DNA of 64,000 bases from a virus. The DNA is taken from the IMG/VR virus record IMGVR_UViG_3300027759_000006, positions 1-64,000 of that record. One strand, written 5' to 3'. Positions 35,403-52,042 of the stretch are shown here, one piece after another. The notes beneath the pieces are model-generated. The model made no database searches. It had not been told where the DNA came from and saw only the letters and a program-made list of their open reading frames with translations. Numbering within the stretch: position 1 is the stretch's first letter; the number at the start of each line of letters is the position of its first letter. Both the position numbers and the translations under genes were made by a program.

Positions 35403-35414
35403 TCTAATATTAGA
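35403..35414. repeat. TCTAATATTAGA palindrome, copy 1
   Basis: Perfect 12-bp palindrome in the gap between the wHTH gene start (35391) and the upstream gene. It overlaps the wHTH gene's ribosome-site region. Confidence 0.85.
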
Positions 35415-35420
35415 TGGGGG

Positions 35421-35603: not shown

Positions 35604-35604
35604 T

Positions 35605-36829: not shown

Positions 36830-37082
36830 TTTTAACTCCTTGTGCAGTGATGAATTTAATTGCGCCGTAGGTGGTCTCGTCCAACACATTTGCGCGGATG
36901 GCAGTGGAGGGCAAGGTGCCAATGTGGTGGATGTACTCCATGCTATACCCGTGGGTTCCGGTGCCTTTGTCTACTCTGTGGTCAATCAGCATTTCGGCTC
37001 CCGCAAGGGCATTCATAAACACCTCCAACTGCGCCTCGTTCAAGATGATTTGATGGTCTTCAAACTTAATTACAAACTTCAT
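36822..37082 (-). CDS. conserved small hypothetical protein
   Basis: 86 residues (MKFVIKFEDHQIILNEAQLEVFMNALAGAEMLIDHRVDKGTGTHGYSMEYIHHIG). Strand-helix start followed by a polar middle. It overlaps the DUF3150-like gene by ATGA, so it may be part of the same functional group. Confidence 0.65.
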   Translation of the reverse strand: MKFVIKFEDHQIILNEAQLEVFMNALAGAEMLIDHRVDKGTGTHGYSMEYIHHIGTLPSTAIRANVLDETTYGAIKFITAQGVKND

Positions 37083-37692: not shown

Positions 37693-37702
37693 GATGTGCC
37701 TT

Positions 37703-38098
37703 TCATATATCAATCCGAACTATTGTTTCCACTTGAAGCAACCCAAGGGCGTGGGAAGACGCGTGTGTCTCTATGTCATCGTGGTTTTCTCCGACACGAG
37801 CAAACTCAAACTCAAACCCACAGCGTTCAACTTCTTGTAGAAGAAACGTCTCAAACGCCTCTATGTCTTTGTCGTGGTCGTACCACTTGATATCATCAAC
37901 TTTGAATACGAGCAATCCATCTTTGTCGTACCACTTTAGATGATTACCCCACATCTCTGTGATGTCTTTGAATGTCGTGTTCATCAAAGTCTTGAGTAGG
38001 GGGTATTTATTTTCCTTGTCGAGCGCGTAGAAGCTGTCTACGCCAAATGGTTTGTGTGTCGAATAGACGATCGCCGTTACATCTGATCTGTATCCCAT
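37703..38098 (-). CDS. conserved hypothetical protein
   Basis: 131 residues from ATG 38098 (MGYRSDVTAIVYSTHKPFGVDSFYALDKENK). The MGYRSDV start and the later KWYDKDGLLVFKVDDIKWY are typical of a family in T4-like and aquatic phages. Strand-rich; function unknown. Confidence 0.7.
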   Translation of the reverse strand: MGYRSDVTAIVYSTHKPFGVDSFYALDKENKYPLLKTLMNTTFKDITEMWGNHLKWYDKDGLLVFKVDDIKWYDHDKDIEAFETFLLQEVERCGFEFEFARVGENHDDIETHASSHALGLLQVETIVRIDI

Positions 38099-38099
38099 G

Positions 38100-38378
38100 T
38101 CATTCTCCTGTGGCAATCAATAGCCTGAGCATGTTGATTGCATCTTCTTTGGTGTTGAACTCCCCCAGAAATTCACGCCTTACGCGCCATGCGTTCGGGT
38201 CATTGGTTCTGCGGTCAACGATGTATGTGGTCTGGTCTTTATCCGGGTATTGGTGAAACGATACGCGGTACCCTACCCTGGATGCGGCGGAAATTACCTC
38301 CGCGCCCTCATGGCCAAATTTCATGTACAGCCATACGCTGTCCCTGCCCGTGGTGGTTATAGTCCAGGACGTACTCAT
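38100..38378 (-). CDS. hypothetical protein, paralogue of 38661-38885
   Basis: 92 residues (MSTSWTITTTGRDSVWLYMKFGHEGAEVISAASRVGYRV). The C-terminus FNTKEDAINMLRLLIATGE resembles FDSKEEAISFLTLLVGAGN of the gene at 38661, suggesting duplication. ATGA overlap with its upstream neighbour. Confidence 0.65.
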   Translation of the reverse strand: MSTSWTITTTGRDSVWLYMKFGHEGAEVISAASRVGYRVSFHQYPDKDQTTYIVDRRTNDPNAWRVRREFLGEFNTKEDAINMLRLLIATGE

Positions 38379-38650
38379 TCCCCGACCTCCCCTGGCGGTA
38401 TGTGCGTCATGTGAAGCATGGCCGTCATAAACGATGGGGGAAATACATTCTCCTCAATGTATATTTTTTCGGATGAAGGGTCGCGGTTCATGTTGCCAAT
38501 ACGCACAAACCAAGCAGCGTTTTTAGCGCGTTTGGCATACGCTACAAGGATTGGTTCCAGTCCCTTTTCTCTGCGCTGGAACATCGCCCAGCATGGTTCG
38601 CTGTGTGTACCCATTTCAAACCGCCAAAATAAAGTACCGCTAGTACTCAT
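38375..38650 (-). CDS. hypothetical protein
   Basis: 91 residues (MSTSGTLFWRFEMGTHSEPCWAMFQRREKGLEPILVAYAKRAKNAAWFVRIGN). Begins MSTS like the next gene, and contains a basic stretch. It lies between the two paralogues. Function unknown. Confidence 0.65.
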   Translation of the reverse strand: MSTSGTLFWRFEMGTHSEPCWAMFQRREKGLEPILVAYAKRAKNAAWFVRIGNMNRDPSSEKIYIEENVFPPSFMTAMLHMTHIPPGEVGE

Positions 38651-38660
38651 GGTGTTCTCC

Positions 38661-38885
38661 TCAATTTCCTGCGCCTACGAGCAGGGTTAAAAATGATATT
38701 GCTTCCTCTTTTGAATCAAAGTCCGCGCGTATTCCTTGTGAGGTACGCGCCACCCAGTTGCCATCGACACACAACACCCACCCGGCGGGTAAATACTCGG
38801 GGGGCTTAGCCGGGGCGATATAGGCATAGCAGATGCGGTCTTTCGACTCGTGGTCGTAGGTAGTCACCCAATACACACCGCTCAC
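38661..38885 (-). CDS. hypothetical protein, paralogue of 38100-38378
   Basis: 74 residues (MSGVYWVTTYDHESKDRICYAYIAPAKPPEYLPAGWVLCVDGNWVARTSQG). Shares the terminal helix pattern with the 38100 gene. Likely a tandem duplicate that diverged. Confidence 0.65.
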   Translation of the reverse strand: MSGVYWVTTYDHESKDRICYAYIAPAKPPEYLPAGWVLCVDGNWVARTSQGIRADFDSKEEAISFLTLLVGAGN

Positions 38886-39202
38886 TCGGAGCCGCCCTCT
38901 CTGCCATTCATAAGCACCAGCACAGTGGATAGGGCGTCTACCAAGGCCTCGTCCTCCCTAATCAGGTATACGCAGTGCTCGTGTTCATCCGGCCCGTTGG
39001 GGTTGTACTTAAATCTTCGGAACTCGATGTATTGCCCATTCAGCGCTTCGTGTATTGAGAATGTGCGGACAGGGACTTGGTTTTCCCCCATGGAGGGACT
39101 AGCAGAATTAAGCATCGCCCCTGCTTCTTTTTGTTTTGCTTCCCGCACTCTGTCCCATGAGGCTTGAAGCACTGAGTCGATCATTCGTGTAAATAGTCCC
39201 AT
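38882..39202 (-). CDS. hypothetical protein
   Basis: 106 residues (MGLFTRMIDSVLQASWDRVREAKQKEAG). N-terminal amphipathic helix followed by EHEHCVYLIREDEALVDALSTVLVLMNG, a small strand-helix domain. It lies directly downstream of the VWA protein gene. Confidence 0.65.
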   Translation of the reverse strand: MGLFTRMIDSVLQASWDRVREAKQKEAGAMLNSASPSMGENQVPVRTFSIHEALNGQYIEFRRFKYNPNGPDEHEHCVYLIREDEALVDALSTVLVLMNGREGGSE

Positions 39203-39203
39203 G

Positions 39204-40379
39204 TCAATCTCCCAATGAAATGTTTACGCCATAGGGCGCTTGCTCGTTAGTGGTGATGGCCCACAGCGTAGGCCAATCCGACCGACCCCAGCTACCGACA
39301 TACCCATCGGTGAACTGAATGACAGCTTGCGGGTTCATGCGCTTCTCACGCAGGTAGTCGAACAACACCGCGCCATCGGTGCCCCCACCCCCCTTGATCT
39401 TGAGGTCTTGCACAGCAAACTGACCACCCTCGAATGTCTGGTGCCCGGCAATGCTCGTGTCCCAATAGATCACATGGGTCTTAGCTGGCTTGACTTGCTC
39501 GATGATGGCCGCGATCTCAGACACAAACATGGTCATTTCCTCACCGCCAAAGACAGACCCGGATGTGTCAAACCCGACCACCAACTCGTTGAGCGTCACG
39601 CCAATCATGGATGGCATGTAGATATCGTCAGCCAGGAACCTGCGGTTGGGTCTGCGCCATGAGGACTCGTCACGCCCTGCACAAGTCTCTTGGACAAACT
39701 CACGCAACACCTTGCGCCAGTCAACCTTGGGTGCCAGCAAGTCACCGAACACACCATCCCTATCGCCAACGCCCTTGCCAGCCAGCTTGCGCCGCAACAT
39801 CTCACCCTGACGCACAGCCCTTGCGATCTCCTCGGCTTGCTTGACTTGCTGTTCCTGGGTTTGCTCAGTAGCGTCACCCCACATATGGTCATCGATACCA
39901 TCGCCACCCTCGCCGCCTTGACCCTGACCGCCGGACTTCTGTTGCTGTTGCTTGAGGTCATCAAAGATTTGCTTGACCGACCAGCCCCGATACTTCTCAT
40001 TGGGCATCACACCCATCGAGAGCATCTTCACGAACCCCTCGCCAGCATCGGTATCGACCAGGGACAGGTTGACAAACTGGTCAGCGGCTTGGTTAGCCAG
40101 CATGTGGTTTTCGTCGTGGAGTGTTTGCCACAAGTGGAGGTGCCGATACGCCTTGTGTGTAGCTTCGTGCAGTACAAGGAACCGCAACTCGGGGTCACTC
40201 GGGCACAACGACTGCACAAAGTCGGGGTTGTAGTACACGTTCCAACCATCGGTTGCGGCGGTGGGCAGGTCTTTGCGTACCTCTACCTTGCCACAAGCCA
40301 ACACGCCAGAGTAGGCGCAGAACTTTTTGTGTTGCATGATGGCGATGTGCGCCTTCTTGATTCGATCTGATACTTCCAT
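39204..40379 (-). CDS. VWA-domain protein with N-terminal HExxH metallopeptidase-like domain
   Basis: 391 residues from ATG 40379 with GGAGA. N-terminal part: helical, with HEATH at 71-75 (VLHEATHKAYRHL), the DUF2201_N-type metallopeptidase motif. A Gln/Gly/Glu-rich linker follows at ~145-200. C-terminal part: VWA-like domain with a MIDAS, D271-x-S273-x-S275 (GFDTSGSV), T334 (GGGTD) and D358 (FTDGY). This resembles the CobT/ViaA-type VWA partners of MoxR ATPases. Likely the metal-dependent partner of the MoxR ATPase at 41257. Confidence 0.85.
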   Translation of the reverse strand: MEVSDRIKKAHIAIMQHKKFCAYSGVLACGKVEVRKDLPTAATDGWNVYYNPDFVQSLCPSDPELRFLVLHEATHKAYRHLHLWQTLHDENHMLANQAADQFVNLSLVDTDAGEGFVKMLSMGVMPNEKYRGWSVKQIFDDLKQQQQKSGGQGQGGEGGDGIDDHMWGDATEQTQEQQVKQAEEIARAVRQGEMLRRKLAGKGVGDRDGVFGDLLAPKVDWRKVLREFVQETCAGRDESSWRRPNRRFLADDIYMPSMIGVTLNELVVGFDTSGSVFGGEEMTMFVSEIAAIIEQVKPAKTHVIYWDTSIAGHQTFEGGQFAVQDLKIKGGGGTDGAVLFDYLREKRMNPQAVIQFTDGYVGSWGRSDWPTLWAITTNEQAPYGVNISLGD

Positions 40380-40380
40380 G

Positions 40381-40974
40381 TCATTCTCCGTTGTAGTTAG
40401 TGATGTAGATACGCTCGGTCGAGTCAAGCATTGCCGCGAGTGCATTGGCTTGCTCGATCTGTGCAGGGGTGCGGGTTGCCGTCACCAAGTCAACCGCTTG
40501 CATGGCAAAGTCATCTTGCCAAAACGTAAATTGGCTGTTGAACGCCGAGATTGTTTTTGTGGCGTCCCACTTCTCAAGATACCTTAATTGGTTAGCGAGG
40601 TACCCATACCGACTGTCTTCAGTTGGGTTGTTGATTTTGTACACCGCCAAGTCAGCCCGCAAAAGGGCAACCAGTTCAGTGGCAACCTCGATGGACACGT
40701 TGTAGTTGTGAAGAGTGACTGTCCCTCCGTACCACGTCGAACTGCCGCCGGGGCTCAAGCGGCGAGAGGTTATGAACGGCGGGTACTTGGCTGTATCCCG
40801 CACAAGCTTCGCCAACTGCAATGTCCTGCTACTCCAACTACCTTGGTACACCCCACCACGCAACATACGCTGTGCACCCAGCTTGGTGCGCCTAGATATG
40901 GTTGAGGGGCTAATGTACACATCGGCAGATACGCCGGGGGTCTTCAATAATCTTGCTGTGTCGTACATACTCAT
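40381..40974 (-). CDS. hypothetical protein in the MoxR/VWA cluster
   Basis: 197 residues from ATG 40974 with GGAGAA upstream. N-terminal region (SPSTISRRTKLGAQRMLRGGVYQGSW) is basic; then two to three strand-helix units, the last with QIEQANALAAMLDSTERIYITNYNG. It lies between the VWA gene and a small membrane peptide, so it may act with the ATPase module; no family recognised. Confidence 0.65.
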   Translation of the reverse strand: MSMYDTARLLKTPGVSADVYISPSTISRRTKLGAQRMLRGGVYQGSWSSRTLQLAKLVRDTAKYPPFITSRRLSPGGSSTWYGGTVTLHNYNVSIEVATELVALLRADLAVYKINNPTEDSRYGYLANQLRYLEKWDATKTISAFNSQFTFWQDDFAMQAVDLVTATRTPAQIEQANALAAMLDSTERIYITNYNGE

Positions 40975-40975
40975 G

Positions 40976-41056
40976 TCAGTTTCTCCAAAGTAAAACATCT
41001 AACGCCACCACGATGATGGCAACCAAGAAAACAATACGCAACAGAGGGGCGTCCAT
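40976..41056 (-). CDS. 26-residue membrane peptide
   Basis: MDAPLLRIVFLVAIIVVALDVLLWRN: one hydrophobic helix bounded by Arg residues. GGAGG ribosome site; the start codon overlaps the stop of the upstream gene (TGATG). Palindrome copy 3 is 11 bp upstream. Confidence 0.5.
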   Translation of the reverse strand: MDAPLLRIVFLVAIIVVALDVLLWRN

Positions 41057-41247
41057 CAAAACCTCCGTCTAATATTAGATGCGCCATACCGCTCGTTGAG
41101 CAGTCCTACCTGCAACATCTCAGCATAGCGAGAATCCAAGTTGTTCTGCGGTGGGGGTGTGTACGCCTTGCCTATGCGGCTTGGGTTCCAGTCTTTGTGT
41201 AAGCGCACAACTGTGCGCCCATCTGAGGTTCGTTCAGTGATTAACAT
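41056..41247 (-). CDS. small hypothetical protein
   Basis: 63 residues (MLITERTSDGRTVVRLHKDWNPSRIGKAYTPPPQNNLDSRYAEMLQVGLLNERYGASNIRRRF). Basic with an internal loop of prolines. Its last codons contain the palindrome (ASNIRRR). Adjacent to the MoxR ATPase gene. Confidence 0.62.
   Translation of the reverse strand: MLITERTSDGRTVVRLHKDWNPSRIGKAYTPPPQNNLDSRYAEMLQVGLLNERYGASNIRRRF
41068..41079. repeat. TCTAATATTAGA palindrome, copy 3
   Basis: Perfect palindrome in the 3' end of the gene at 41056-41247, just before the ribosome site of the membrane peptide gene. Confidence 0.82.
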
Positions 41248-41256
41248 CGTGACTCC

Positions 41257-42336
41257 TTAGAAGTACTTGCCGAGTTTTGCGGCGGCTTCGGTGAACTTGC
41301 GATTGCGACACGCCATACCTACCTTGGACTTGTTGGACGCCAAGGTGGAGATGAACAACGCATTGGCCTCGAATGACTTCCAACGCGCCGTGTAGGTCAT
41401 CACCGCGTCCATGCTGTCCGCATTGACACGCCCAGCCAACATGAAGGACAGGATGAACAACGCACCCACGCTGTCGGTGTCTGGCACCTTGGTCTTGTGT
41501 GGGTCACGCACAATGTTCTCGAACAGTGGCAACTGGTCAGCCAAATGCACCAGGGCATCAAGCAAACGCGCCGCAGGTTCGCCGATCGTACCGGCCAGTG
41601 CTGGCAGGGTAGCGTCACCCAACACGTTGCGTTGTTTGACAATGTTGCTGGCCTTTGCCATCGAACGCAACGAACAGAACGCTCGGGTGTTGCCATTCAA
41701 TGGGTTGAAGATGTAGGGGTTCTTCTCGTTCTTGCCCAGCGTTGTGTAGCACTGGAACACCTCGGGGTTCTGCTTGGCGAACGCCATGATCTCAGGGGCA
41801 ATGTCGTTGTCTGCCGCCCAGATTAGCCAGTCATCGCACATAACATCTACCTCCACCTCAGTCATGCGGTTGTAGGCATGGCCTGGGATGTTGTCACCCA
41901 CGCCGTCAGTGTCGAGGTTGGTGGTTGCAAACACGATAGACCCGGTGGGCAGGGGCACATCGCCGATGCGATGCTCCAAGATGGTAGGCAACAACATATT
42001 GAGCACAGGGCGGGACGCCTTGCCCAACTCGTCTAACATTAGACAGACAGGGCGCGTCTGACCACGGCCAATACCGAACCTCGCATTGGGTGCGTAGTTG
42101 GTAATCATCGCTTCCTTGTCGATCACAGGCATACCCAGGTCGCCGAGGTCGAGGTTGGCCACGTCGATGTAGCACATCTGGTAGTCCGGCAGGTCTTTGG
42201 CCAGCATCGAGAGGATGCTTGACTTGCCGATACCGGGCCGACCCCGCAGGATGATAGTGTTGCTTGAGCCAACATGGCGAATGAGATTCGCGGCTTGGTT
42301 GAGGGACAAACGCATGGTTGATTTAGTGACTGACAT
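41257..42336 (-). CDS. MoxR-family AAA+ ATPase
   Basis: 359 residues. Walker A GRPGIGKS (32-39), Walker B LMLDEL (99-104; D102, E103), sensor 1 ATTN (137-140) and a later arginine-finger-like ...NRM. The C-terminal domain is helical, typical of MoxR/CobS ATPases that remodel partner proteins. An AAGGAAA site precedes the ATG. The variant palindrome at 42031 falls within the Walker B codons. Acts as a chaperone-like ATPase, presumably with the VWA protein at 39204 and the DUF3150-like protein. Confidence 0.87.
   Translation of the reverse strand: MSVTKSTMRLSLNQAANLIRHVGSSNTIILRGRPGIGKSSILSMLAKDLPDYQMCYIDVANLDLGDLGMPVIDKEAMITNYAPNARFGIGRGQTRPVCLMLDELGKASRPVLNMLLPTILEHRIGDVPLPTGSIVFATTNLDTDGVGDNIPGHAYNRMTEVEVDVMCDDWLIWAADNDIAPEIMAFAKQNPEVFQCYTTLGKNEKNPYIFNPLNGNTRAFCSLRSMAKASNIVKQRNVLGDATLPALAGTIGEPAARLLDALVHLADQLPLFENIVRDPHKTKVPDTDSVGALFILSFMLAGRVNADSMDAVMTYTARWKSFEANALFISTLASNKSKVGMACRNRKFTEAAAKLGKYF
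42031..42044. repeat. variant palindrome GTCTAACATTAGAC (coding)
   Basis: 14-bp palindrome-like element in the Walker B region of the MoxR gene. On the minus strand it reads GTCTAATGTTAGAC, identical to the variant upstream of the promoter at 46389. The coding constraint means chance cannot be excluded. Confidence 0.5.
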
Positions 42337-42390
42337 GATTTAAATTTCCTTGATTGATTGATTTACTTGTGCATCAACCCTTTGCAGGGT

Positions 42391-42402
42391 TCTAATATTA
42401 GA
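42391..42402. repeat. TCTAATATTAGA palindrome, copy 4
   Basis: Perfect palindrome in the 72-bp gap between the MoxR gene and the upstream gene. It abuts a hairpin AACCCT/AGGGTT with a four-base loop (42376-42391). Confidence 0.83.
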
Positions 42403-42408
42403 TGCGGG

Positions 42409-43155
42409 TTACAGGGGGATGCTTGTTATGTCTGTGATTGATGTTGCCATGAACTCCTTTCGTAGATCTGACATGAGCCGGGCCCATGTTTGTTTGACTG
42501 GTAATCTCTCCGACTCCTTAGGCCAATGAGTGCGTAGGAATGCGTAGCGGGACACGATCTCAGGCCAATCGTTGGCATGGCACTCTTGCGTGATGGCCTT
42601 GACGATCGTGCTTGGGTTCCATATACCTCGGTTGTTGTGGTCTTCAACATTAGCGGCAAGCACAGGGAACACCGCCTTGAACCCTGACTCCACTATGTCC
42701 TCACGAAACCCCTCGATCTCGTGCTTGTCTATGTGCCGCGCATCGAATGCGTGCAGGTCGCTGAGGATGTTGCCCTCGCCATCCAACTCGATCTCGTCAA
42801 AGTATTTATACAGCGTTCGGTTGACACGCAAGGCGGTCTGGTTAAGACTCTTGACACTCCACGAACCAATGCCGATGTGAAACGGCACGAACCCAAACGC
42901 CTCGTTGAGTCTCGCCTTCGTAGTGGGTCGGTCGTACCAGCCCCGTGTGTCGATCACAATGCGCCCATCCTCATAGGCAGTCAGTATGTCGGTGGAGTAC
43001 ATGCGTACCACCATTGCGTTGTCGTTGCGCCGTAGCACCCTGACATGGTTGCGTTGCCGCTTGCGCCCATCCAAAGGCGCGGCGTTCTTGTACATCCCGC
43101 GCTTGTACTTGTGGCGTTCAAGGTGCAGGGCTAGGTTTGTGTGTGTTGTTTTCAT
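42409..43155 (-). CDS. conserved hypothetical protein
   Basis: 248 residues from ATG 43155 with AGAGGACAAC. Strand-rich core: MKTTHTNLALHLERHKYKRGMYKNAAPLDGRKRQRNHVRVLRRNDNAMVVRMYSTDILTAYEDGRIVIDTRGW. The C-terminal half is helical (LRKEFMATSITDITSIPL at the end). A recognisable aquatic-phage protein, but without known function. First gene of the block upstream of the MoxR ATPase. Confidence 0.7.
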   Translation of the reverse strand: MKTTHTNLALHLERHKYKRGMYKNAAPLDGRKRQRNHVRVLRRNDNAMVVRMYSTDILTAYEDGRIVIDTRGWYDRPTTKARLNEAFGFVPFHIGIGSWSVKSLNQTALRVNRTLYKYFDEIELDGEGNILSDLHAFDARHIDKHEIEGFREDIVESGFKAVFPVLAANVEDHNNRGIWNPSTIVKAITQECHANDWPEIVSRYAFLRTHWPKESERLPVKQTWARLMSDLRKEFMATSITDITSIPL

Positions 43156-43364
43156 GTTGTCCTCTTTGGGTTGAGTTGTTTCAAAATGGTGGGGTCGGTG
43201 ATAAGCACGTAGTTTGATTTGTTCAAGGGTGCGATGGTGTGTCGCACTGCCCTTGCTTCGGTCTCGCCACACCCAGCACAGGTGGGGCGCTTGAGGTATC
43301 GGCGGGCGGGCTCGACACGCACGGCATAGCACGCCATGCAGATCGGCAGGTGGTAGTCTTCCAT
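43152..43364 (-). CDS. small zinc-ribbon protein
   Basis: 70 residues from ATG 43364 with AGGAGA. Two Cys pairs, C-x2-C at the start (CMACYAVRV) and C-x2-C further on (PTCAGCGE), fit a zinc ribbon, followed by HTIAPLNKSNYVLITDP. ATGA overlap with the next gene. Possible regulator or RNA-binding protein. Confidence 0.68.
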   Translation of the reverse strand: MEDYHLPICMACYAVRVEPARRYLKRPTCAGCGETEARAVRHTIAPLNKSNYVLITDPTILKQLNPKRTT

Positions 43365-43378
43365 GGTTAGTCTCCTTC

Positions 43379-43708
43379 CTACCAATCTTTACAGTTACAA
43401 AGTTTCTCAACGCCTGTTTTGTATGCGTGGCAACTCATCATATGCACGGGCTTGATGCCGTGGTACAGGTAGTCGTCAATCGCACTAGCGCAGTCGGTCA
43501 GCTTCTGCGTCACGCTTGTGTATAGCTTCGCCGCCATTGCCAACTGCTCGGGCGTGGATTGCGGGTTCTCCATCAGCTTGAGCAGGGTTTCTTCCATGTG
43601 CACCACATTCATGCGGATGCCATTCCACTGACGCATGAGGATGTTGATCTTTGGGTCGCGCATGCCAAATCTCCATGCGGTCGGTTGTGTTTCACTGGTT
43701 TTCATCAT
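43379..43708 (-). CDS. hypothetical helical protein
   Basis: 109 residues (MMKTSETQPTAWRFGMRDPKINILMRQWNGIRMNVVHMEETLLKLMENPQ). Two long helices and a Cys-rich end (KLCNCKDW). Overlaps the upstream gene's stop by ATGA. Unknown role. Confidence 0.66.
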   Translation of the reverse strand: MMKTSETQPTAWRFGMRDPKINILMRQWNGIRMNVVHMEETLLKLMENPQSTPEQLAMAAKLYTSVTQKLTDCASAIDDYLYHGIKPVHMMSCHAYKTGVEKLCNCKDW

Positions 43709-43887
43709 TCGCCCCTTGTGTAATCTTCGAGGGCCAGGGCATGCCCGGCAGTCTCGGTGTCGTGGTTGGCCAGCGCCACGGCGCGTAGTTCGTCTGCGGA
43801 TTCGGTGTCGTACACCTGATACCCCCAGTACTCCAGGTACATCACCAGTTCCCAGCGGTCAGCGTTTTGCAATTGGTTACGTGTCAT
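43705..43887 (-). CDS. small helical protein
   Basis: 60 residues from ATG 43887 with AAGGAAA. MTRNQLQNADRWELVMYLEYWGYQVYDTESADELRAVALANHDTETAGHALALEDYTRGE: helix-turn pattern with a strong acidic end. First confident gene of the long early operon driven from 44484. Confidence 0.68.
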   Translation of the reverse strand: MTRNQLQNADRWELVMYLEYWGYQVYDTESADELRAVALANHDTETAGHALALEDYTRGE

Positions 43888-44078
43888 GTTTGATTTCCTT
43901 TGAATAGAAGGTTTGGTGAACAACTCACCCGATAGGCCACGATTACATGGCCTACCAGTTGGTCTGTCCAGACAGCCGTGAGGCGTCTATATCCAACGGG
44001 GGCAGATCGTGCCCCTGGGTACGATAGGGTTTGTCGGTGCGATTTACTGGCATCTAATATTAGATTGCCATCCCGCAT
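43884..44078 (-). CDS. possible small ORF in the early leader
   Basis: 64 residues, ending by ATGA overlap with the gene at 43887 as most genes here do. The sequence (MRDGNLILDASKSHRQTLSYPGARSAPVG...) is low-quality and the start has no good ribosome site. Palindrome copy 5 lies inside it. Could be a leader peptide or a spurious frame. Confidence 0.3.
   Translation of the reverse strand: MRDGNLILDASKSHRQTLSYPGARSAPVGYRRLTAVWTDQLVGHVIVAYRVSCSPNLLFKGNQT
44053..44064. repeat. TCTAATATTAGA palindrome, copy 5
   Basis: Perfect palindrome in the leader of the leftward early operon, about 420 bp downstream of the promoter at 44484. Confidence 0.84.
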
Positions 44079-44483
44079 CCCGAGGGTTCATTGGGGTTGG
44101 CCAAGAGGAACACGCCCATTTAGGTACATAGCGTATTGATTGCATCCTGCTATCGGGTTCGGTGCTTGGGTATGCGTTAACACCCCATTGATTGCACACT
44201 ACTACTTACACCACATGATGCGCCGACTGGCTACGGCACGCCTTTTCACCTAGGGAGGGGTCATCCAGATATGTGTCTCTTGGTTCGCTTGCTAGCGTTC
44301 GTTTGCAATCTGGTTCTGCCTATAGGTTTCTCGTATACATTACTTCCGAGCGGCGGTTTGATGCGTCTAATATTAGATGGTTAGATCTACGTATAGACTG
44401 GCCTGTATTGATTTTTAATGAACGTGGGGCGCATAAGGGGAAGGCTACCCGTAACTCAGAGCGATATCCGAGTCGATGGGTCT
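44079..44483 (-). other. untranslated leader of the early leftward operon
   Basis: About 400 bp without a convincing gene. It holds palindrome copy 6 and the short repeats ATTGATTGCA near 44135 and 44188, each followed by a similar stretch. Local hairpins are possible, but I see no terminator. It may set RNA stability or host an antitermination site. Confidence 0.45.
44366..44377. repeat. TCTAATATTAGA palindrome, copy 6
   Basis: Perfect palindrome about 110 bp downstream of the expected start site of the promoter at 44484. Confidence 0.84.
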
Positions 44484-44512
44484 ATTGTACCAGATATATA
44501 GATCTTTGTCAA
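44484..44512 (-). promoter_or_regulatory. strong sigma-70 promoter of the early leftward operon
   Basis: On the minus strand: -35 TTGACA (44507-44512), 17-bp spacer, -10 TACAAT (44484-44489). Perfect -35 and five of six matches in -10. Transcription would begin near 44477 and continue through the early genes to the terminator at 26850. Confidence 0.82.
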
Positions 44513-44548
44513 TAGTCTGGGGGGCCTGTTCCGGCCCTGCACAGGTGT

Positions 44549-45055
44549 CTATTTCTCCTTCTTCACAGCATTCTCTCGGCGTGCTTCCTCTGCAAAATAC
44601 AGCTTCTCAGCCATGATCGCCGTGATGTTGAATCGCTTGGCGGTGGCGTGCAGGTCGGCATTTTCGTAGATGTCTTGGTACACATCGGCGGCGAGGTGTG
44701 GGTTGGTTGCAGTGATGACGCTGAGTTCGTCTGAGGTGTCCGCGCCCCAGTCTTTGAGGATTTCTTTTTCGCGGTCGGTCAGGGGTTTGGCTTGCGGGGC
44801 TTGGGCCTTGGTTTTGGGCAGAGTGATAGTATTGCCGCGCATGATCTGGTTGATGCGGTCGATGGATATGCGGTACTCGTTGGCCAGGGCACGTCGGGTT
44901 TCCCCTGAGTTCACGCGCAAGATGATGTCGGCATCGCGTGTGGCATTGGGGCCTGTGGGGGATTCGGGGACAAGCATGAGGGCGCGGATTGCGGCTTGAA
45001 CGCGGGGGGATATGGCAAGCAGGGCTAGGAATTCATCTTCAAATGCTGGGGACAT
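44549..45055 (-). CDS. HTH-containing DNA-binding protein (candidate regulator)
   Basis: 168 residues. Central segment ETRRALANEYRISIDRINQIMRG is a helix-turn-helix very like the sigma-70 region 4 recognition helices (YGISRERVRQI); the N-terminus is helical and the C-terminus is charged (ENAVKKEK). It lies between two promoters and near palindrome copy 7, so it may control them. Function inferred. Confidence 0.65.
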   Translation of the reverse strand: MSPAFEDEFLALLAISPRVQAAIRALMLVPESPTGPNATRDADIILRVNSGETRRALANEYRISIDRINQIMRGNTITLPKTKAQAPQAKPLTDREKEILKDWGADTSDELSVITATNPHLAADVYQDIYENADLHATAKRFNITAIMAEKLYFAEEARRENAVKKEK

Positions 45056-45106
45056 TGGGGGCTCCGGGTGGTTGGTGTAGTAAGGCTTGTAATTGTAGCA
45101 TGGGCA
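45056..45106 (-). promoter_or_regulatory. possible promoter for the 44549-45055 gene
   Basis: A TACAAT hexamer on the minus strand (45092-45097) stands upstream of the ATG, but there is no good -35 at 16-18 bp; that space is occupied by the palindrome at 45107-45118. This is the arrangement expected for an activator- or repressor-controlled promoter. Confidence 0.4.
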
Positions 45107-45118
45107 TCTAATATTAGA
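45107..45118. repeat. TCTAATATTAGA palindrome, copy 7
   Basis: Perfect palindrome in the intergenic region between the HTH gene and the origin-like locus. It overlaps where a -35 would lie for TACAAT at 45092. Confidence 0.86.
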
Positions 45119-45413
45119 CGGGGGATTACCATTACTACAACTACTACTGAGGGTGATTGGGGTTTACCAGTAGAAATGGTGTACGTGAAAAGTTCGCTTG
45201 TAACGAAAAGGGGGGGCTTGTAACGCTCGTGTAACTTTTTGAAGTGGCGCGGAAAGTGGCGTGGGTGCTGGGTTCACCTTGACGTGTAACGTTGTAGCGT
45301 GGTTTTTGGAGAATTCACGGGAAAACACCCTCAGTGTAGTAGTAGTAATGGTAATGACGCTACAACTCCTACTACTACACTTGTGGAATATTTCCCAGCC
45401 ACTCAGTTAAACA

Positions 45414-45431
45414 GCGTTACAGCGTTACACG
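45414..45431 (+). repeat. iteron pair, first direct-repeat copy
   Basis: GCGTTACAGCGTTACACG, containing two CGTTACA units 8 bp apart, directly before the (TA)10 tract. Confidence 0.85.
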
Positions 45432-45487
45432 TCTCTATATATATATATATATATATTTATTTATTATTAGTATTAGGGGGGATTTCA

Positions 45488-45499
45488 TCTAATATTAGA
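45488..45499. repeat. TCTAATATTAGA palindrome, copy 8
   Basis: Perfect palindrome between the A/T-rich tract and the second iteron pair. Confidence 0.85.
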
Positions 45500-45565
45500 T
45501 GCTTTTCGAGAACCTTATGCTTACAGTTGTAATGTAACGTAAACTGCATATTTTGCGTAACATTT

Positions 45566-45583
45566 GCGTTACAGCGTTACACG
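45566..45583 (+). repeat. iteron pair, second direct-repeat copy
   Basis: Exact repeat of the 18 bp at 45414-45431. It follows palindrome copy 8 by 66 bp. Confidence 0.85.
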
Positions 45584-45624
45584 CTTTTTGCCGCTCGGTG
45601 ATAGTGTTTGCCACGCCAGCGGCG

Positions 45625-45636
45625 TCTAATATTAGA
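45625..45636. repeat. TCTAATATTAGA palindrome, copy 9
   Basis: Perfect palindrome at the right edge of the origin-like region. Confidence 0.85.
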
Positions 45637-45752
45637 TCCCATGCTGGGCCCGGCGGCGAGGTCTCTCCCGCACACGCATTCTCCCACGCGGTCCGACTAC
45701 TATCACGCAAAGCGTGCGCATGATACGCACGCAGGTGGAGAAAAATGAGGGC

Positions 45753-45777
45753 GAAAAAAAGCCCGCCGAAGCGGGCT
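45753..45777 (-). terminator. Rho-independent terminator after the 45794-46324 gene
   Basis: On the minus strand: stem AGCCCGC / GCGGGCT with a TTCG tetraloop (45760-45777), followed by a run of T. It stands 16 bp beyond the stop of the gene and shields the origin-like region from that transcript. Confidence 0.9.
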
Positions 45778-45793
45778 GGAGGGGCGAGAAAAT

Positions 45794-46324
45794 TTACTCT
45801 GCGATTTCTTTGAACCCATCGAGGGATTCAATCGCAAGGTCAACCATTGACGCACTGAATTCAGACAAGCCAAGTATGCGGGCCTGCGCGATGGCTTTGG
45901 ATATTGTTTTGTCCAATTCTTCACGCGTGGTTGATTGAACCTTACCTGCTTTGGCCGTTGCAGGGGTGGATTTTTTGGAGAATGGCAATTTTTTGGTGTC
46001 ATCATTTTTCAATGATGGGGTGAATTCAACCCCATAATGCAAGGCACGCATGGCAGACTGAGCGTATTCAGTAAAGGTTTTGCGCTCCATTTGACCCGTG
46101 GCGCATGCGTCAACCACTACCTGAGAATCCCGGATGGCTTTGCCCATGGCCTTTACGGCCTTTTCATCTTTGCCGACCTGAACCAACCAAGTATCAACAA
46201 AGCGTTGCATGGTTGTGCAAACCACAGAGGACAACTTGTCCTGAGCATTGTCGAAAGATTTCCAACCCCGAATGATGGATTTTGCATGGGTATCGAAAGA
46301 GGGGAGAGTGATGACGTTTGTCAT
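45794..46324 (-). CDS. monocistronic early protein, unidentified
   Basis: 176 residues (MTNVITLPSFDTHAKSIIRGWKSFDNAQDKLSSVVCTTMQRFVDTWLVQVGKDEKAVKAMGKAIRDSQVVVD...). Helical throughout, with Ser/Thr-Lys linkers (KKSTPATAKAGKV) and a last helix (ASMVDLAIESLDGFKEIAE). AAGGAAA site. It has its own sigma-70 promoter (46389) and its own terminator (45753), so it is a separately expressed early transcript next to the origin. Possibly a replication or host-takeover factor; no family recognised. Confidence 0.72.
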   Translation of the reverse strand: MTNVITLPSFDTHAKSIIRGWKSFDNAQDKLSSVVCTTMQRFVDTWLVQVGKDEKAVKAMGKAIRDSQVVVDACATGQMERKTFTEYAQSAMRALHYGVEFTPSLKNDDTKKLPFSKKSTPATAKAGKVQSTTREELDKTISKAIAQARILGLSEFSASMVDLAIESLDGFKEIAE

Positions 46325-46388
46325 TTTGATTTCCTTGAGTTGCGTTGATGAAATGCCGGGTTAGAGTGATTTCCAAACCGACAAATGA

Positions 46389-46417
46389 ACTGTAACGCAA
46401 AGCGCCCGACTTGTCAA
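46389..46417 (-). promoter_or_regulatory. sigma-70 promoter for the 45794-46324 gene
   Basis: On the minus strand: -35 TTGACA (46412-46417), 17-bp spacer, -10 TACAGT (46389-46394). Expected start near 46382. A TGTAACG 7-mer overlaps the -10 region. Confidence 0.75.
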
Positions 46418-46435
46418 GTGTTTGTTTAGATGTTT

Positions 46436-46449
46436 GTCTAATGTTAGAC
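46436..46449. repeat. variant palindrome GTCTAATGTTAGAC
   Basis: 14-bp perfect-arm palindrome centred about 61 bp upstream of the expected start of the 46389 promoter, the position typical of class I activator sites. Differs from the consensus only in the central two bases and flanks. Confidence 0.75.
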
Positions 46450-46536
46450 CTTCAAAAATCCGGCCCTGTTGACCCCACCCGGCCCCGACCCCCACTTATG
46501 GCTTTGGGACTCCGCCCGCGCCGCTTACGCTGAGTG

Positions 46537-46565
46537 TTGCATTCGCTACTATTAACAGGCATAAT
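46537..46565 (+). promoter_or_regulatory. sigma-70 promoter of the rightward late operon
   Basis: -35 TTGCAT (46537-46542), 17-bp spacer, -10 CATAAT (46560-46565). Expected start near 46572, 27 bp before the HNH gene. With the 46389 promoter it forms a divergent pair separated by about 120 bp. Confidence 0.7.
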
Positions 46566-46598
46566 CCCCACCATACCGTAGTCATTAGTGGGGGTCCC

Positions 46599-47132
46599 AT
46601 GGAGAACAAACGATTTGGCCGCTTGGTAGTACAACAGCTACGCAGCAAAGATAAAAATTACAATAAACGCTGGGTCTGCCTTTGCGACTGCGGAAACACA
46701 ACCGTTGTCTTGGGTGATAAGTTACGTAGTGGAAATACACAATCTTGTGGCTGCTACCGCGTAGAGTTTCGGGAAACTCTTGTCCGCACTGCTGACGAAG
46801 AACGCCGGATGTATACCAAAAAATCATATCAAGCCATGATGGGCCGGTGCTACAACGAAACCTACCCGTCGTATATACGGTACGGGGGGCGAGGAGTGAG
46901 TGTTTGCAATCGGTGGCGGTATGGGGAAGATGGCAAAACAGGCTGGCTGTGCTTTTTTGAGGATATGGGACCCAAACCTACCGGCCACTCTATTGACCGC
47001 ATAGACAACGAGAAGAACTACACCCCAGACAATTGCAGGTGGGCCACAATCCAACAACAGGCGCAAAACCGCAGACCTTGGGGATCGCTACGTACCCCCC
47101 TTCTCCCAAAAACACCCCCACCCCAAAAATAA
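46599..47132 (+). CDS. HNH homing-type endonuclease
   Basis: 177 residues. The N-terminus has a zinc-binding pattern: C-x-C-x-C within WVCLCDCG and SCGC further on. The core (RCYNETYPSYIRYGGRGVSVCNRW) and the HNH block GHSIDRIDNEKNYTPDNCRWATIQQQAQN carry the typical His, Asp and Asn. The protein resembles the AP2/HNH mobile nucleases of phages. It lies between the late promoter and the small terminase gene, so it could be a mobile insertion. Start supported by a GGGGG/GGG site. Confidence 0.82.
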   Translation: MENKRFGRLVVQQLRSKDKNYNKRWVCLCDCGNTTVVLGDKLRSGNTQSCGCYRVEFRETLVRTADEERRMYTKKSYQAMMGRCYNETYPSYIRYGGRGVSVCNRWRYGEDGKTGWLCFFEDMGPKPTGHSIDRIDNEKNYTPDNCRWATIQQQAQNRRPWGSLRTPLLPKTPPPQK

Positions 47133-47205
47133 AACACACCTGTGAAAAATTACACTATACTTACCATTGAAGACTCATTGCAACACAACGGCTGCGTAAC
47201 ACGCC

Positions 47206-47757
47206 ATGTACACACCGGTCATCGATTACGACGTACCACTTGCAGACTATGCACCCACCTTCCAAGACTTGAGGGACCGGGTAGCTTCCGCCGTTGCGGC
47301 GCTGGAAGATTTGGACTACCTGCCGGAGCCAACAGAAGAAGATCGCCGGGTGAGCCGGGCAATTTTCGCTGGGGAGCAAGGAGCCACGGACACAGACCTG
47401 TCCAGCCCCGGGGTAATCGTGCATGTGGCTGCATTACTCAATGAATATGACCGCACCGTGGTCAAAAGTGCTGCACAACTGCGGACCTACGTCACAAACA
47501 AGCTGATTTTGGAGTCCGACAACCAAGACCCACGCATCAGGATCAAGTCACTGGAGTTACTGGGCAAGATTTCAGACGTTGGGTTGTTCACAGACAAGAC
47601 AGAAATCACCATGCGGCACCGTCCCACCGAGGAATTGGAGCAAATGCTGCGCGAAAGGCTCACCCGGGTCATCGAAGGCGACGTTTTCGAGGTGTCCAAC
47701 CCCGACAAACTGGCCGAACGGCCCAAAATGGACGTTTCTGAGGTGCTTGGCGAGTGA
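47206..47757 (+). CDS. terminase small subunit (putative)
   Basis: 183 residues immediately before the large subunit (1-4 bp overlap). Central helices (LRTYVTNKLILESDNQDPRIRIKSLELLGKISDVGLF) and the end (HRPTEELEQMLRERLTRV) are typical of small terminase proteins that bind DNA and load the large subunit. No obvious ribosome site; translation may be coupled to the preceding region. Packaging role is inferred from position. Confidence 0.78.
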   Translation: MYTPVIDYDVPLADYAPTFQDLRDRVASAVAALEDLDYLPEPTEEDRRVSRAIFAGEQGATDTDLSSPGVIVHVAALLNEYDRTVVKSAAQLRTYVTNKLILESDNQDPRIRIKSLELLGKISDVGLFTDKTEITMRHRPTEELEQMLRERLTRVIEGDVFEVSNPDKLAERPKMDVSEVLGE

Positions 47758-49280
47758 TTACCGACGATGTGCTGACCCCAGAGCGCGTAAATCGCATCGT
47801 GAAGAGCCTGCCGTCGGCAGAAGCAGCGGAATTGCTGGCTTTGATGGACGAATTGCAGGGCCGCAAGCGTATTGACATGTGTCAACTGGACTTTTTGGCG
47901 TTTATTGCGGCCATGGACCCCACATATAAGTTCGGAGTCCACTTAAAACGGCTGGGAAACCTGCTGATGGATGTGGAGAAGAACATCAAAAACCGCATTG
48001 CGGTGTCAATGGCCCCCAGGATGGGCAAATCGCAGATGATTTCCATCTACTACCCGGCTTGGTACCTCGGTTTGCACCCCGATCACAAGGTAATTGTGGC
48101 CTCCCACACGGCTGATTTGGCTGTTGTGATGGCCAGAAAAGTGCGAAATCTCATCAATACGCCCGAGTACAAGGCCATATTTCCCAACACGGCGATCGCC
48201 GCAGATGCCAAAGCAGCGGCCCAATGGAACACCACAAAGGGCGGAGAGTACTTCGCCATCGGTGTGGGCGGCGCGTTGGCCGGTCGCGGAGCGCACTTAA
48301 TCATTGCCGACGATCCGTTGTCGGAGCAGGACATCAAGGCGGGCAATACTTCATCACTGGACTCCACATATGAGTGGTTCTCTGCGGGATTGCGCACTCG
48401 TCTGATGCCGGACGGAAAGATATGCGTGCTGCACACAAGGTGGCACCAGCGGGACTTGATTGGGCGGTTGGTAAAAGACTCGGCCATGAACGAAGGCGGG
48501 GACAAATACGAGACGTTTGAGTTCCCTGCCATCCTCAATGAGAACACCGACAACGAGAAATCTATTTGGCCAGAACAGTGGACAATTGAAGCGCTGCAAC
48601 AAACCCGGGCGTCAATGCACCACATCATGTGGCAATGGTTTGCTCAGTACCAGCAAAACCCCACGGCGTCGGAAGCAGCCATCATCAAGCGAGAGTGGAT
48701 CAAGTGGTGGACAAAGGATGACCCACCTGCGGTTGATTTCATCGTGCAGTCCTACGATACGGCGCTCACCACCAAGCAGCGGTCAGACTTCTCTGTGTGT
48801 CATACATGGGGCGTGTGGAAGAACGAGGAAGATGTTGACAACGTGATCTTGCTCAACCGGGTCAAGGGCAAGTACGAGTTCCCTGAACTCAAAGTCATGG
48901 CCCACGAGCAGTTTAAAAACTGGGAGCCGGACAGCGTTATCGTGGAGGCCAAAGCGTCTGGCCAACCGCTTATTGACGAAATGCGCCGCTCGGGTATATT
49001 TGTGCAGGACTTCAGCCCCGGCAAGGGACAAGACAAGATCGCGCGGCTCAATGCTGTGGCAGACATGTTTGCCTCTGGTCAGGTATGGTTTCCTGAGACT
49101 TCTTGGGCAGCGTCAACGGTCGAGGAAATTCTGGCTTTCCCAGCGGGCGAAAACGACGACGAGGTTGATGCAATGACACTGGCCCTGATGCGTATTAGAA
49201 AAGGCGGGCTATTGCGGTTGCAGACCGACCACGAGGATAATGAACCCTTCTACCGGGCCCGTCGGCCTGCGTACTACTAA
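47754..49280 (+). CDS. terL: terminase large subunit
   Basis: 508 residues. ATPase: Walker A APRMGKS (87-93) and Walker B LIIADDPL (182-189, D186 and D187). The arginine/coupling region GALAGRGAHLIIADD is conserved. Nuclease: DTALT, EAKASGQ and DDEVDAMTLAL supply the RNase H-like acidic triad. It packages DNA into the head through the portal, cutting the concatemer. Length and motif order are normal. Confidence 0.95.
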   Translation: MITDDVLTPERVNRIVKSLPSAEAAELLALMDELQGRKRIDMCQLDFLAFIAAMDPTYKFGVHLKRLGNLLMDVEKNIKNRIAVSMAPRMGKSQMISIYYPAWYLGLHPDHKVIVASHTADLAVVMARKVRNLINTPEYKAIFPNTAIAADAKAAAQWNTTKGGEYFAIGVGGALAGRGAHLIIADDPLSEQDIKAGNTSSLDSTYEWFSAGLRTRLMPDGKICVLHTRWHQRDLIGRLVKDSAMNEGGDKYETFEFPAILNENTDNEKSIWPEQWTIEALQQTRASMHHIMWQWFAQYQQNPTASEAAIIKREWIKWWTKDDPPAVDFIVQSYDTALTTKQRSDFSVCHTWGVWKNEEDVDNVILLNRVKGKYEFPELKVMAHEQFKNWEPDSVIVEAKASGQPLIDEMRRSGIFVQDFSPGKGQDKIARLNAVADMFASGQVWFPETSWAASTVEEILAFPAGENDDEVDAMTLALMRIRKGGLLRLQTDHEDNEPFYRARRPAYY

Positions 49281-49289
49281 GGATCAGAA

Positions 49290-51845
49290 ATGGAAAAAGG
49301 TATTTACGCCGCCCCCCTGGGGCTTGATTCAATGGGCACCGACGACGAGGCGCTGGAGATCGACATTGAGGACCCCGAGTCAGTAACTCTGAGCGACGGC
49401 AGCATGGAGATTACTCTGATGCCGGACTCGGACAAGAGCGAAGACTTCGATGCCAACTTGGCCGAAGAGATGGACGAGGGGGCACTGCAAACAGTAGCGA
49501 GTGATCTGTTGGAGTTAGTTGACGCTGACATCAACAGCCGCAAAGACTGGGTGGACATGTACGTCAAGGGCCTTGAAGTGCTGGGCATGAAGTACGAGGA
49601 GCGCACCGAGCCGTGGAACGGCGCATGCGGGGTGTACTCCACAGTGCTGACTGAGGCGGCAATCCGGTTCCAGTCAGAGACCATCATCGAGACATTCCCG
49701 TCCGCCGGGCCCGTGAAGACGGAGATCATCGGTGCCATTGACCGCTACAAAACTGAGGCAGCGGAGCGAGTTCGTGAGGACATGAACTACCAGTTGACCG
49801 AGGAAATGCCTGAGTACCGTCCTGAGCATGAGCGGTTGCTGTACTCCCTGGGGTTGGCCGGAGCGGCATTTAAAAAGGTGTACTACGACCCGGCGATGCG
49901 CCGCCAAGTGGCAATCTTTATTCCGGCTGAGGACATCATCCTGCCGTATGCCGCGTCGAGCGCCCGCTCCGCAGAACGTCTTACGCACACCATGCGCAAG
50001 ACCAAGAACGACATTAAAAAGCTGCAAGTCAGTGGGTTTTATCGGGATGTGGACTTGGGCGAACCCACCACAATCCACACCGACATCGAGAAGAAAAAGG
50101 CTGAAGACCAAGGGTATTCCCTTACCGATGACGAGCGGTACCAGATATATGAAATTCACGTTGACTACGATCTGCCGGGCTACGAGGACGACGATGGGAT
50201 TGCACTGCCTTATGTCATCACCATTGACCGCAGCACCCAGGAAGTTCTGGCTATCCGACGCAACTGGGACCCGGAAGATGAGCGCCGCTTAAAGCGCCAG
50301 CACTTCGTACAGTACACGTACATACCAGGAAGTGGTTCCTACGGCTTGGGGCTGATCCATTTGATTGGCGGGTACGCACGAGCGGGCACCATGCTCATCC
50401 GTCAGTTGGTCGATGCGGGCACACTCAGTAACCTGCCCGGCGGGTTGAAGGCCAGAGGGTTGCGGGTCAAGGGCGACGACACGCCCATCGCCCCGGGAGA
50501 GTTCCGCGATGTGGACGTGCCAAGCGGCAGCATCAAAGACAACATCATGGCCCTGCCGTACAAAGAGCCAAGCCAAGTGCTGGCCGGGCTGTTGGAGAAA
50601 ATCACCGACGAGGGTCGCCGTCTGGGCTCTATCGCGGACATGAACGTCAGCGACATGAGCGCTAATGCTCCGGTGGGTACCACGTTGGCGTTGCTCGAGC
50701 GGCAGCTTAAAGTGATGTCGGCTGTACAGGCGCGGGTGCACTACAGCATGAAGGAGGAGTTCAAGCTCCTCAAGGACATCATCCGCGACTACGCGCCGGA
50801 GGACTACGAGTACGACCCCGCCAGCGGCGACCGTCAAGTCAAGCAGTCGGACTACGACATGGTGGACGTGATCCCTGTGTCGGACCCCAACAGCAGCACG
50901 ATGGCCCAGAGGATCATGCAGTACCAAGCTGTCATGCAGATGGCTCAAGGGGCTCCGCAAATTTATGACTTGCCTTACTTGCACCGCCAGATGATTGAGG
51001 TGTTGGGCATCAAGAACGGCGAGAAGCTTGTGCCCATGGCCGAGGACATGAAGCCACGGGACCCTGTGTCAGAGAACATGGCGTTCCTGAATGGGGAGCC
51101 CACCAAGGCGTTTATCTACCAAGATCACGATGCGCACATCGCTGTGCACACAGCCATGATGCAGGACCCGCTGATCATGGCGCAGATTGGCCAGAACCCA
51201 CAAGCGCAGAAGATGCAGAGCGAGATCATGGCCCACATCAGTGAGCACTTGGCCTTTGCATATCGTCGCAAGGTTGAGGAGCAGCTTGGCGTTGAGATGC
51301 CTGCACCCAACGAAGAGATTCCCAAAGAGTTGGAAGTGCAGTTGTCCCGCTTGGTGGCCCAGGCCGCACAGCAAGTGTTGGCCCAGAGCAAGTCCCAGGC
51401 GGCGCAGCAACAAGCCCAGCAAGCTGCGCAAGACCCGATCGTCCAGATGCAGCAAGCTGAGTTGCAGATCAAGAAGCAGGAAGCTGACACTAAGGCCAAG
51501 AAGGTTGAGGGTGACTTGTTGCTCAAGCAAGCTGAGATCGAGCTCAAGGCGCAAGCACAAGGAAGCCAGAACCCAGACCCAGTTATGTTGGCCGAGCAAC
51601 ACCGTCAAGAGATGGAGATGCAGAGCCAACGGCATGCCATGGAGATGGCCCAGGCGCAACAGTCACAACAACTTGACGCACAGAAGCAACAGCAGGGCAT
51701 GGCGCAGGCACAACAGATGCACACACAACAGATGGCGCATGGCGGGCAGGTGCACAACCAGAAGCTCACTCATGCACAAGAGCAAGCAAGAATAAAAGCG
51801 GAGTTGATGCGCAATCAACCCAAGCCAGGGAATAAAGGAGAGTAA
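49290..51845 (+). CDS. portal protein, P22-type
   Basis: 851 residues. The N-terminus is acidic (EIDIEDPESVTLSDGSMEI). The body has portal features: a Trp/Asn-rich clip region (TEPWNGACGVYSTV), a crown and long helices, a repeated acidic ring (YDPAMRRQVAIFIPAEDIILPYAASSARS), and a Gln-rich helical C-terminus (QAAQQVLAQSKSQAAQQQAQQ). The length and the Gln-rich barrel fit P22-like portals. It forms the dodecameric DNA channel. Ends 1 bp into the next gene. Confidence 0.88.
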   Translation: MEKGIYAAPLGLDSMGTDDEALEIDIEDPESVTLSDGSMEITLMPDSDKSEDFDANLAEEMDEGALQTVASDLLELVDADINSRKDWVDMYVKGLEVLGMKYEERTEPWNGACGVYSTVLTEAAIRFQSETIIETFPSAGPVKTEIIGAIDRYKTEAAERVREDMNYQLTEEMPEYRPEHERLLYSLGLAGAAFKKVYYDPAMRRQVAIFIPAEDIILPYAASSARSAERLTHTMRKTKNDIKKLQVSGFYRDVDLGEPTTIHTDIEKKKAEDQGYSLTDDERYQIYEIHVDYDLPGYEDDDGIALPYVITIDRSTQEVLAIRRNWDPEDERRLKRQHFVQYTYIPGSGSYGLGLIHLIGGYARAGTMLIRQLVDAGTLSNLPGGLKARGLRVKGDDTPIAPGEFRDVDVPSGSIKDNIMALPYKEPSQVLAGLLEKITDEGRRLGSIADMNVSDMSANAPVGTTLALLERQLKVMSAVQARVHYSMKEEFKLLKDIIRDYAPEDYEYDPASGDRQVKQSDYDMVDVIPVSDPNSSTMAQRIMQYQAVMQMAQGAPQIYDLPYLHRQMIEVLGIKNGEKLVPMAEDMKPRDPVSENMAFLNGEPTKAFIYQDHDAHIAVHTAMMQDPLIMAQIGQNPQAQKMQSEIMAHISEHLAFAYRRKVEEQLGVEMPAPNEEIPKELEVQLSRLVAQAAQQVLAQSKSQAAQQQAQQAAQDPIVQMQQAELQIKKQEADTKAKKVEGDLLLKQAEIELKAQAQGSQNPDPVMLAEQHRQEMEMQSQRHAMEMAQAQQSQQLDAQKQQQGMAQAQQMHTQQMAHGGQVHNQKLTHAQEQARIKAELMRNQPKPGNKGE

Positions 51846-52042
51846 TGGACAACCACGTATTGGAGCTGCTGAATTCCAAATTGGAAGAGCGCAAAGTTGG
51901 ACTCATCGAAGTTTTGAGTGATGGCGGGGCATCGTCCTACGATCACTACAAAGAATTGTGCGGGACTATCCGAGGTCTCCTGACCGCACAGTTAGAAATA
52001 GGTGACCTCGTGCGTAGACTAAAGGAAAATGACGATGACTGA
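51845..52042 (+). CDS. small helical protein after portal
   Basis: 65 residues (MDNHVLELLNSKLEERKVGLIEVLSDGGASSYDHYKELCGTIRGLLTAQLEIGDLVRRLKENDDD). Two charged helices with an acidic end; overlaps both neighbours. Conserved position between portal and GroES-like gene in related phages, function unknown. Confidence 0.7.
   Translation: MDNHVLELLNSKLEERKVGLIEVLSDGGASSYDHYKELCGTIRGLLTAQLEIGDLVRRLKENDDD

Follow-up and report, generated by a model that had tools for sequence, protein, structure and literature searches.

A conserved iteron and A/T-tract module as the probable replication origin of an uncultured tailed phage and its relatives

The 64-kb window analyzed here (positions 1 to 64,000 of the 65,164-bp IMG/VR virus record IMGVR_UViG_3300027759_000006, which belongs to an uncultured, tailed freshwater phage) contains, in 738 bp of non-coding DNA, a locus of 400-600 bp that is very probably the replication origin of the phage. 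We computed the architecture of this locus, its uniqueness, its conservation, a concerted change of its short repeats (iterons) in one relative and the kinship of a phage protein to iteron-binding initiators. An earlier note, made from the letters of the window, had proposed either an origin or a packaging or recombination initiation site; the comparison with relatives, dozens of which keep the locus at the same place, supports the former over the latter. The locus presents the marks of an iteron origin, namely a clustered specific repeat, an adjoining A/T-rich element and a conserved position and architecture. The non-coding DNA around it is bounded by genes 44549-45055 and 45794-46324, both running leftward as the note had stated. 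Small open reading frames overlap the region, which is read as non-coding, in agreement with the note: distant relatives retain the motifs and not the frames, and in close relatives the DNA of the region is no less conserved than that of the neighboring genes.

The repeat is the 7-mer TGTAACG (or CGTTACA), with eight exact copies within 383 bp (45199-45581); about nine had been claimed in under 400 bp, a count that holds only for the 6-mer TGTAAC, although the cluster itself is real. In the 64-kb window the 7-mer occurs 14 times versus an expected 5.6 ± 2.3, and at least 14 copies were obtained in none of 100 shuffles. When every 6- and 7-mer was scanned de novo, this cluster ranked as the top-scoring 700-bp cluster of the whole 65,164-bp record, and it is therefore not an artefact of looking. 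The left iteron group (45199-45291, plus strand) comprises TGTAACG at 45199-45205, 45219-45225 and 45285-45291 and TGTAAC at 45230-45235. A central tandem pair, GCGTTACAGCGTTACACG (45414-45431, minus strand), lies 4 bp from a 34-nt stretch of A and T only (45436-45469), which includes alternating TA and is likely the DNA unwinding element. The right group (45533-45583) consists of one TGTAACG on the plus strand (45533-45539) and a second tandem pair on the minus strand (45566-45583), an exact duplicate of the central 18-mer. Both the duplicated pair and the tract had been described correctly at the outset.

Relatives were compared at several distances. One scan found 217 TerL-encoding stretches of the phage group. 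Two contigs, L094 and L095, align across the entire non-coding region, with identities in the core (45190-45590) of 98.0% and 95.3%, respectively, versus 96.8% and 90.5% for the left flanking gene and 91.9% and 88.1% for the right one. Both contigs retain the iterons, the A/T tract, both tandem pairs and a long inverted repeat described below, and clear indels are found only to the right of the module. The iterons, whose loss from close relatives the earlier note had named as grounds for doubt, are hence conserved there and, as a module, across the clade. In the contigs of the clade, which encode TerL at 83-99% identity, the module follows the order AAAAAG, iteron pair, A/T tract, usually CTATCTCTCTCT ((CT)n), and further iterons; the (CT)n tract usual in relatives is missing from the window's locus. 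A scan with a hidden Markov model (HMM) detected the module in every one of the 22 TerL loci whose upstream sequence extends for 2.9 kb or more, including L016, L050, L054, L057, L077 and L078, which did not contribute to the seed; it lies ~2.3 kb before TerL and occurs once per genome. Two independent patterns, for its left and right halves, matched 21 and 24 stretches across all IMG/VR, once each and largely on the same contigs. The iteron pair is mostly inverted (GTTACAATGTAACA, in the main clade) and sometimes made of direct repeats, for example CGTTACATGCGTTACA; G004 and L079 have a direct pair at the spot of the main-clade inverted pair. An HMM of the central pair also detects a weaker reverse-strand copy just to its left in many relatives. 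The A/T tract stands at the equivalent place in nearly all relatives and measures 16-42 nt in most, its place being taken by TATC repeats in G013 and by a weaker A-rich stretch in L057. In the five near-complete genomes compared (G000, the window's own, to G004), the 400 bp to either side of the tract contain 6-12 copies of TGTAAC, versus a maximum of 2-5 in any other 800 bp, and in G001-G004 the iterons keep similar distances, with right-hand iterons at +89 to +162. One relative, L091, whose primase-helicase is 67% identical to that of the window, carries six TGCAAC/GTTGCA copies in place of TGTAAC around its A/T tract, which is followed by (GA)n. Since these iterons have changed together, they point to one sequence-specific protein that reads all sites.

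A further conserved element lies to the right of the iterons. This single-copy block of 34 nt (45675-45708; consensus ~CTCTCCCGCACGGTCAGACTACTATGACG), followed by a variable hairpin, gives a single strong match in each of the five near-complete genomes, at a distance of ~240-310 bp to the right of the central pair. The block is present in most modules, and in many relatives a C/G-rich alternating sequence precedes it.

The only clear candidate for an initiator is the 962-aa product of the leftward gene 20680-23568, which Pfam, PDB and Foldseek comparisons portray as an AEP primase fused to a DUF927 helicase with a C-terminal winged-helix-like domain, and as kin to iteron-binding initiators. 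Its DUF927 match in Pfam has an e-value of 1.6e-22, and its only sequence matches in the PDB are 8tch, whose entry names a pathogenicity island protein, and 5dgk, an active helicase. Foldseek returned SaPIbov1 Rep and SCCmec Cch first for the full AlphaFold model, followed by the S-2L primase-polymerase and the RepB' primase, and for the C-terminal 234 residues alone (pLDDT 79.5) the only significant matches were Cch and SaPIbov1 Rep. In the Rep helicases of Staphylococcus aureus pathogenicity islands (SaPIs), the C-terminal domain recognizes iteron origins (PMC7581432), and the origins of Escherichia coli phage-inducible chromosomal islands (PICIs) always contain two iteron sets flanking an AT-rich region (PMC6092414); the rep-ori of PICIs drives plasmid replication. 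On balance, we favor the primase-helicase as the reader of the iterons. We infer the binding partner, the melting at the tract and the direction and timing of replication as follows. The initiator, most likely the primase-helicase, would bind the TGTAAC(G) iterons through its C-terminal domain, assemble on both sides of the A/T tract and melt it; it would then load itself as a ring helicase and prime with its own AEP domain, and the family-A DNA polymerase of the phage would copy outward.

Compared with the pri-rep-ori modules of PICIs and SaPIs (SaPIbov1, EcCICFT073; PMC6092414, PMC7581432), the phage shares a DUF927-type initiator helicase, here of the SaPIbov1 Rep/Cch type, with a putative C-terminal DNA-recognition domain and a primase that is fused or adjacent, and its module has the PICI layout of iteron sets flanking an AT-rich tract. 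It differs in that the origin lies ~22 kb from the primase-helicase gene and not directly downstream of it, in that its iterons point either way, in the separate single-copy block on the right and, in most relatives, a (CT)n tract, and in being a 65-kb phage. By analogy, the module would work like a PICI-type origin; because of the distance to the gene it is not classed as a PICI replicon.

Among annotated phages, a search with the primase-helicase returned four phages of Rhizobium and, at 27.8% identity, Pseudomonas phage Rollin. Rollin encodes homologous replication proteins in the same order, and its record (OR577172) contains an unannotated origin-like region at ~61262-700. There, the motif TATGCAA occurs eight times within 260-679 and once elsewhere in the record (8/9), in a non-coding gap at a divergent gene junction; three tandem copies adjoin an A/T tract, and a site matching the consensus of integration host factor (IHF) and palindromic AAAAGGTAG repeats lie close by. 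Rollin, whose origin is our own assignment and not an annotated one, therefore resembles the window in its homologous replication block, two-sided iterons around an A/T tract, divergent gene junction and palindromic repeats, and differs from it in its iteron (TATGCAA instead of TGTAACG), in the AAAAGGTAG type of its palindromes and in its IHF-consensus site, of which the window has none. Judged by its sequence, this cultured phage is an instance of the same design with an unrelated iteron, and hence an independent case for reading the locus as an origin. In phage lambda, the origin consists of O-protein iterons and an AT-rich tract, of which the closest two iterons are enough for function in vitro (PMC7466680). 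The phage module likewise sets iterons beside such a tract, whereas the lambda origin is contained in the O gene and has iterons on one side only; no homologue of O or P was found among the window proteins tested. Satellite P4 initiates at ori and crr, two separated sites with short iterons, by means of its alpha protein, a primase-helicase fusion whose helicase belongs to another family. The phage shares with P4 the primase-helicase fusion as candidate initiator and the short iterons, and differs from it in that only one iteron cluster was found. An A/T-rich intergenic stretch with weakly repeated ATTATG/TCATAA occurs near the start of the early block in Rhizobium phage RHph_TM3_14A; it is not a convincing counterpart of the origin. 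The DUF927 primase-helicase relative of that phage (MN988472, 42239-45322) is annotated as 'putative integrase protein', probably a misannotation. The phage collection searched holds no isolate of the group, the closest TerL in it being ~45% identical, and no such module was seen near TerL in the nearest isolates by TerL (HTVC023P, HTVC027P, DSL-LC04). A DNA-level search of the collection with 44001-52000 returned nothing useful.

Several observations weigh against an origin read by the primase-helicase. The origin (45.4 kb) and the gene (20.7-23.6 kb) lie far apart, as they also do in the near-complete relatives, in contrast to SaPIs, where the origin directly follows rep, and AlphaFold modelled the full protein with low confidence (pLDDT 66, pTM 0.39). 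The C-terminal domain of the L091 primase-helicase displays no obvious change to match the iteron switch; the binder could therefore be another protein, and the switch does not identify the reader. G014 has degenerate iterons only, and no exact IHF consensus occurs in the window or in main-clade modules. Of 44 modules, 10 carry this consensus, 34-43 bp beyond the point where the tract begins, with a background of 0.006 per module; this excess and the site in the Rollin region count in favor of an origin, although at that frequency IHF was rejected as a general origin component. Finally, the skew check proposed by the earlier note gave minima near the module in most of the five genomes, compatible with an origin and tracking the changes of gene direction. 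Purine skew has its minimum to the right of the module in G001-G004, at 1.1-1.7 kb, and to the left in G000, at ~0.6 kb, and turns a second time close to the far gene-direction switch. For GC skew, the minimum is no more than ~5.4 kb from the module in G000-G003, whereas G004 is a misfit. Because gene direction switches at the same places, a confounding that itself counts among these points, skew neither proves nor refutes an origin.

The replication genes form a leftward block from ~46.3 to 20.7 kb (family-A DNA polymerase, exonuclease, SNF2-type helicase, primase-helicase), and the structural genes run rightward from ~46.6 kb (HNH endonuclease, TerL, portal, head). In a rival reading, the TGTAACG sites would bind a phage regulator and the A/T tract would be part of leftward early promoters. 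The position upstream of a leftward gene and the presence of operator-like palindromes would suit such transcription control, which we nevertheless regard as improbable: other early promoters lack the TGTAAC clustering seen at this locus, the module yielded no sigma-70-like promoter, and the module is kept, whereas relatives of the left-hand gene 44549-45055 are found only in the two closest contigs (for which reason that gene was also rejected as the initiator). The dispersal typical of operators is seen instead in the palindrome TCTAATATTAGA, whose nine exact copies all fall in the leftward block (35403-45636), three of them, as the earlier note had reported, at the locus or its edges (45107-45118, 45488-45499 and 45625-45636). 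Counting one-mismatch forms, 35403-46448 holds nine exact and two further copies, all confined to the leftward early block and the DNA immediately upstream of it. Relatives carry palindromes that differ by lineage (TCTAAGCTTAGA, TCTAACGTTAGA, CTTAAGCTTAAG, AGTTATAAnnTTATAACT). Because they are dispersed over the leftward block and lineage-dependent in sequence, the palindromes suit operators; they are probably operators of early genes, separate from origin function, and resemble an operator system that switches between lineages.

A packaging (pac) or recombination start site recognized by terminase is more improbable still. The module lies ~2.3 kb from TerL, and the contigs of many relatives end nearby, ~1.75-2.3 kb upstream of TerL, with G015 starting inside its own A/T tract (L232 1-40). 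Against this, the gene order of the five near-complete genomes fits one circular map on which contig ends are scattered. The ends near the module are probably assembly breaks at low-complexity or variable DNA, the alternative being virion ends or replication intermediates. An A/T tract flanked by two-sided iterons is not known as a usual design of a pac site. A partition (centromere) site of a plasmid-like phage, which predicted repeated binding sites in non-coding DNA might suggest, is the least probable reading, as no ParA/ParB-type protein was found among the proteins tested and a centromere needs no A/T melting tract.

Other repeats at the putative origin appear to be less general. The inverted arms of about 30 bp noted earlier are indeed present as a long inverted repeat (45125-45355; arms 45125-45158 and 45323-45355) of ~33-34 nt, 91% complementary and 164 bp apart. 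This repeat is not evident in the distant relatives read and is lineage-specific; the features of the family are the two-sided iterons, the pair by the tract and the tract itself. An imperfect dyad (45281-45433; arms 45281-45305 and 45409-45433, 84% complementary) has an iteron site at either end, and within it lies a hairpin-forming repeat (45333-45381) with arms of 21 nt (45333-45353 and 45361-45381, 86% complementary) and a 7-nt loop, whose right side constitutes a third arm absent from the earlier note. The hairpin sequence is not conserved, and stem-forming potential at its place is modestly raised across relatives (mean z of -1.46 versus -0.37 in control windows, with 11 of 36 below -2); consensus folding of 13 relatives gave 7 pairs, 2 of them with two-sided changes. 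With so few pairs and so modest an excess, a conserved RNA or single-stranded DNA structure is not claimed, and a central dyad with hairpin potential is weakly suggested. No Rfam family reached the gathering threshold within 44000-47300, and an RNA element was rejected. A rolling-circle nonanucleotide was likewise rejected, the main-clade TTAGTATTAC resembling TAGTATTAC and the window reading TTAGTATTAGG; the absence of an HUH-type Rep among the proteins tested also counts against rolling-circle replication. On the minus strand, a terminator-like hairpin of gene 45794-46324 (45760-45777) would insulate the origin from the right.

Elsewhere in the window, the leftward genes 39204-40445 and 41257-42336 encode a DUF2201 (metallopeptidase-like/VWA-like) protein and a match to a phage ATPase family (phrog_1297), and a comparable pair, annotated as ATPase and metallopeptidase domain proteins, is encoded by the Rhizobium phage. 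In Planktothrix phage Pag-Yong1 (L102), GTATGAC occurs nine times in 400 bp of intergenic DNA upstream of TerL (~10130-10520), possibly an unrelated iteron array. A single TerL match in an Armatimonadetes bin, on a 5.7-kb contig, is too weak to assign a host.

If the locus is the replication origin, a wider picture may tentatively be drawn, in which a widespread clade of uncultured freshwater phages would employ a satellite-style, SaPI-Rep-like initiator on a remote origin, iteron specificity would shift as a set between lineages, iteron pairs would flip between direct and inverted at a fixed position, and the single-copy block would be a second, undescribed cis element of initiation. The module and the primase-helicase provide a putative origin open to testing, together with its candidate initiator, for phages that have no isolate in the collection searched, and would tie their replication to the initiator family of pathogenicity islands. 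The natural iteron variants found beside homologous initiators (TGTAAC, TGCAAC and the TATGCAA of Rollin) may thereby serve as a set for studying DNA recognition.
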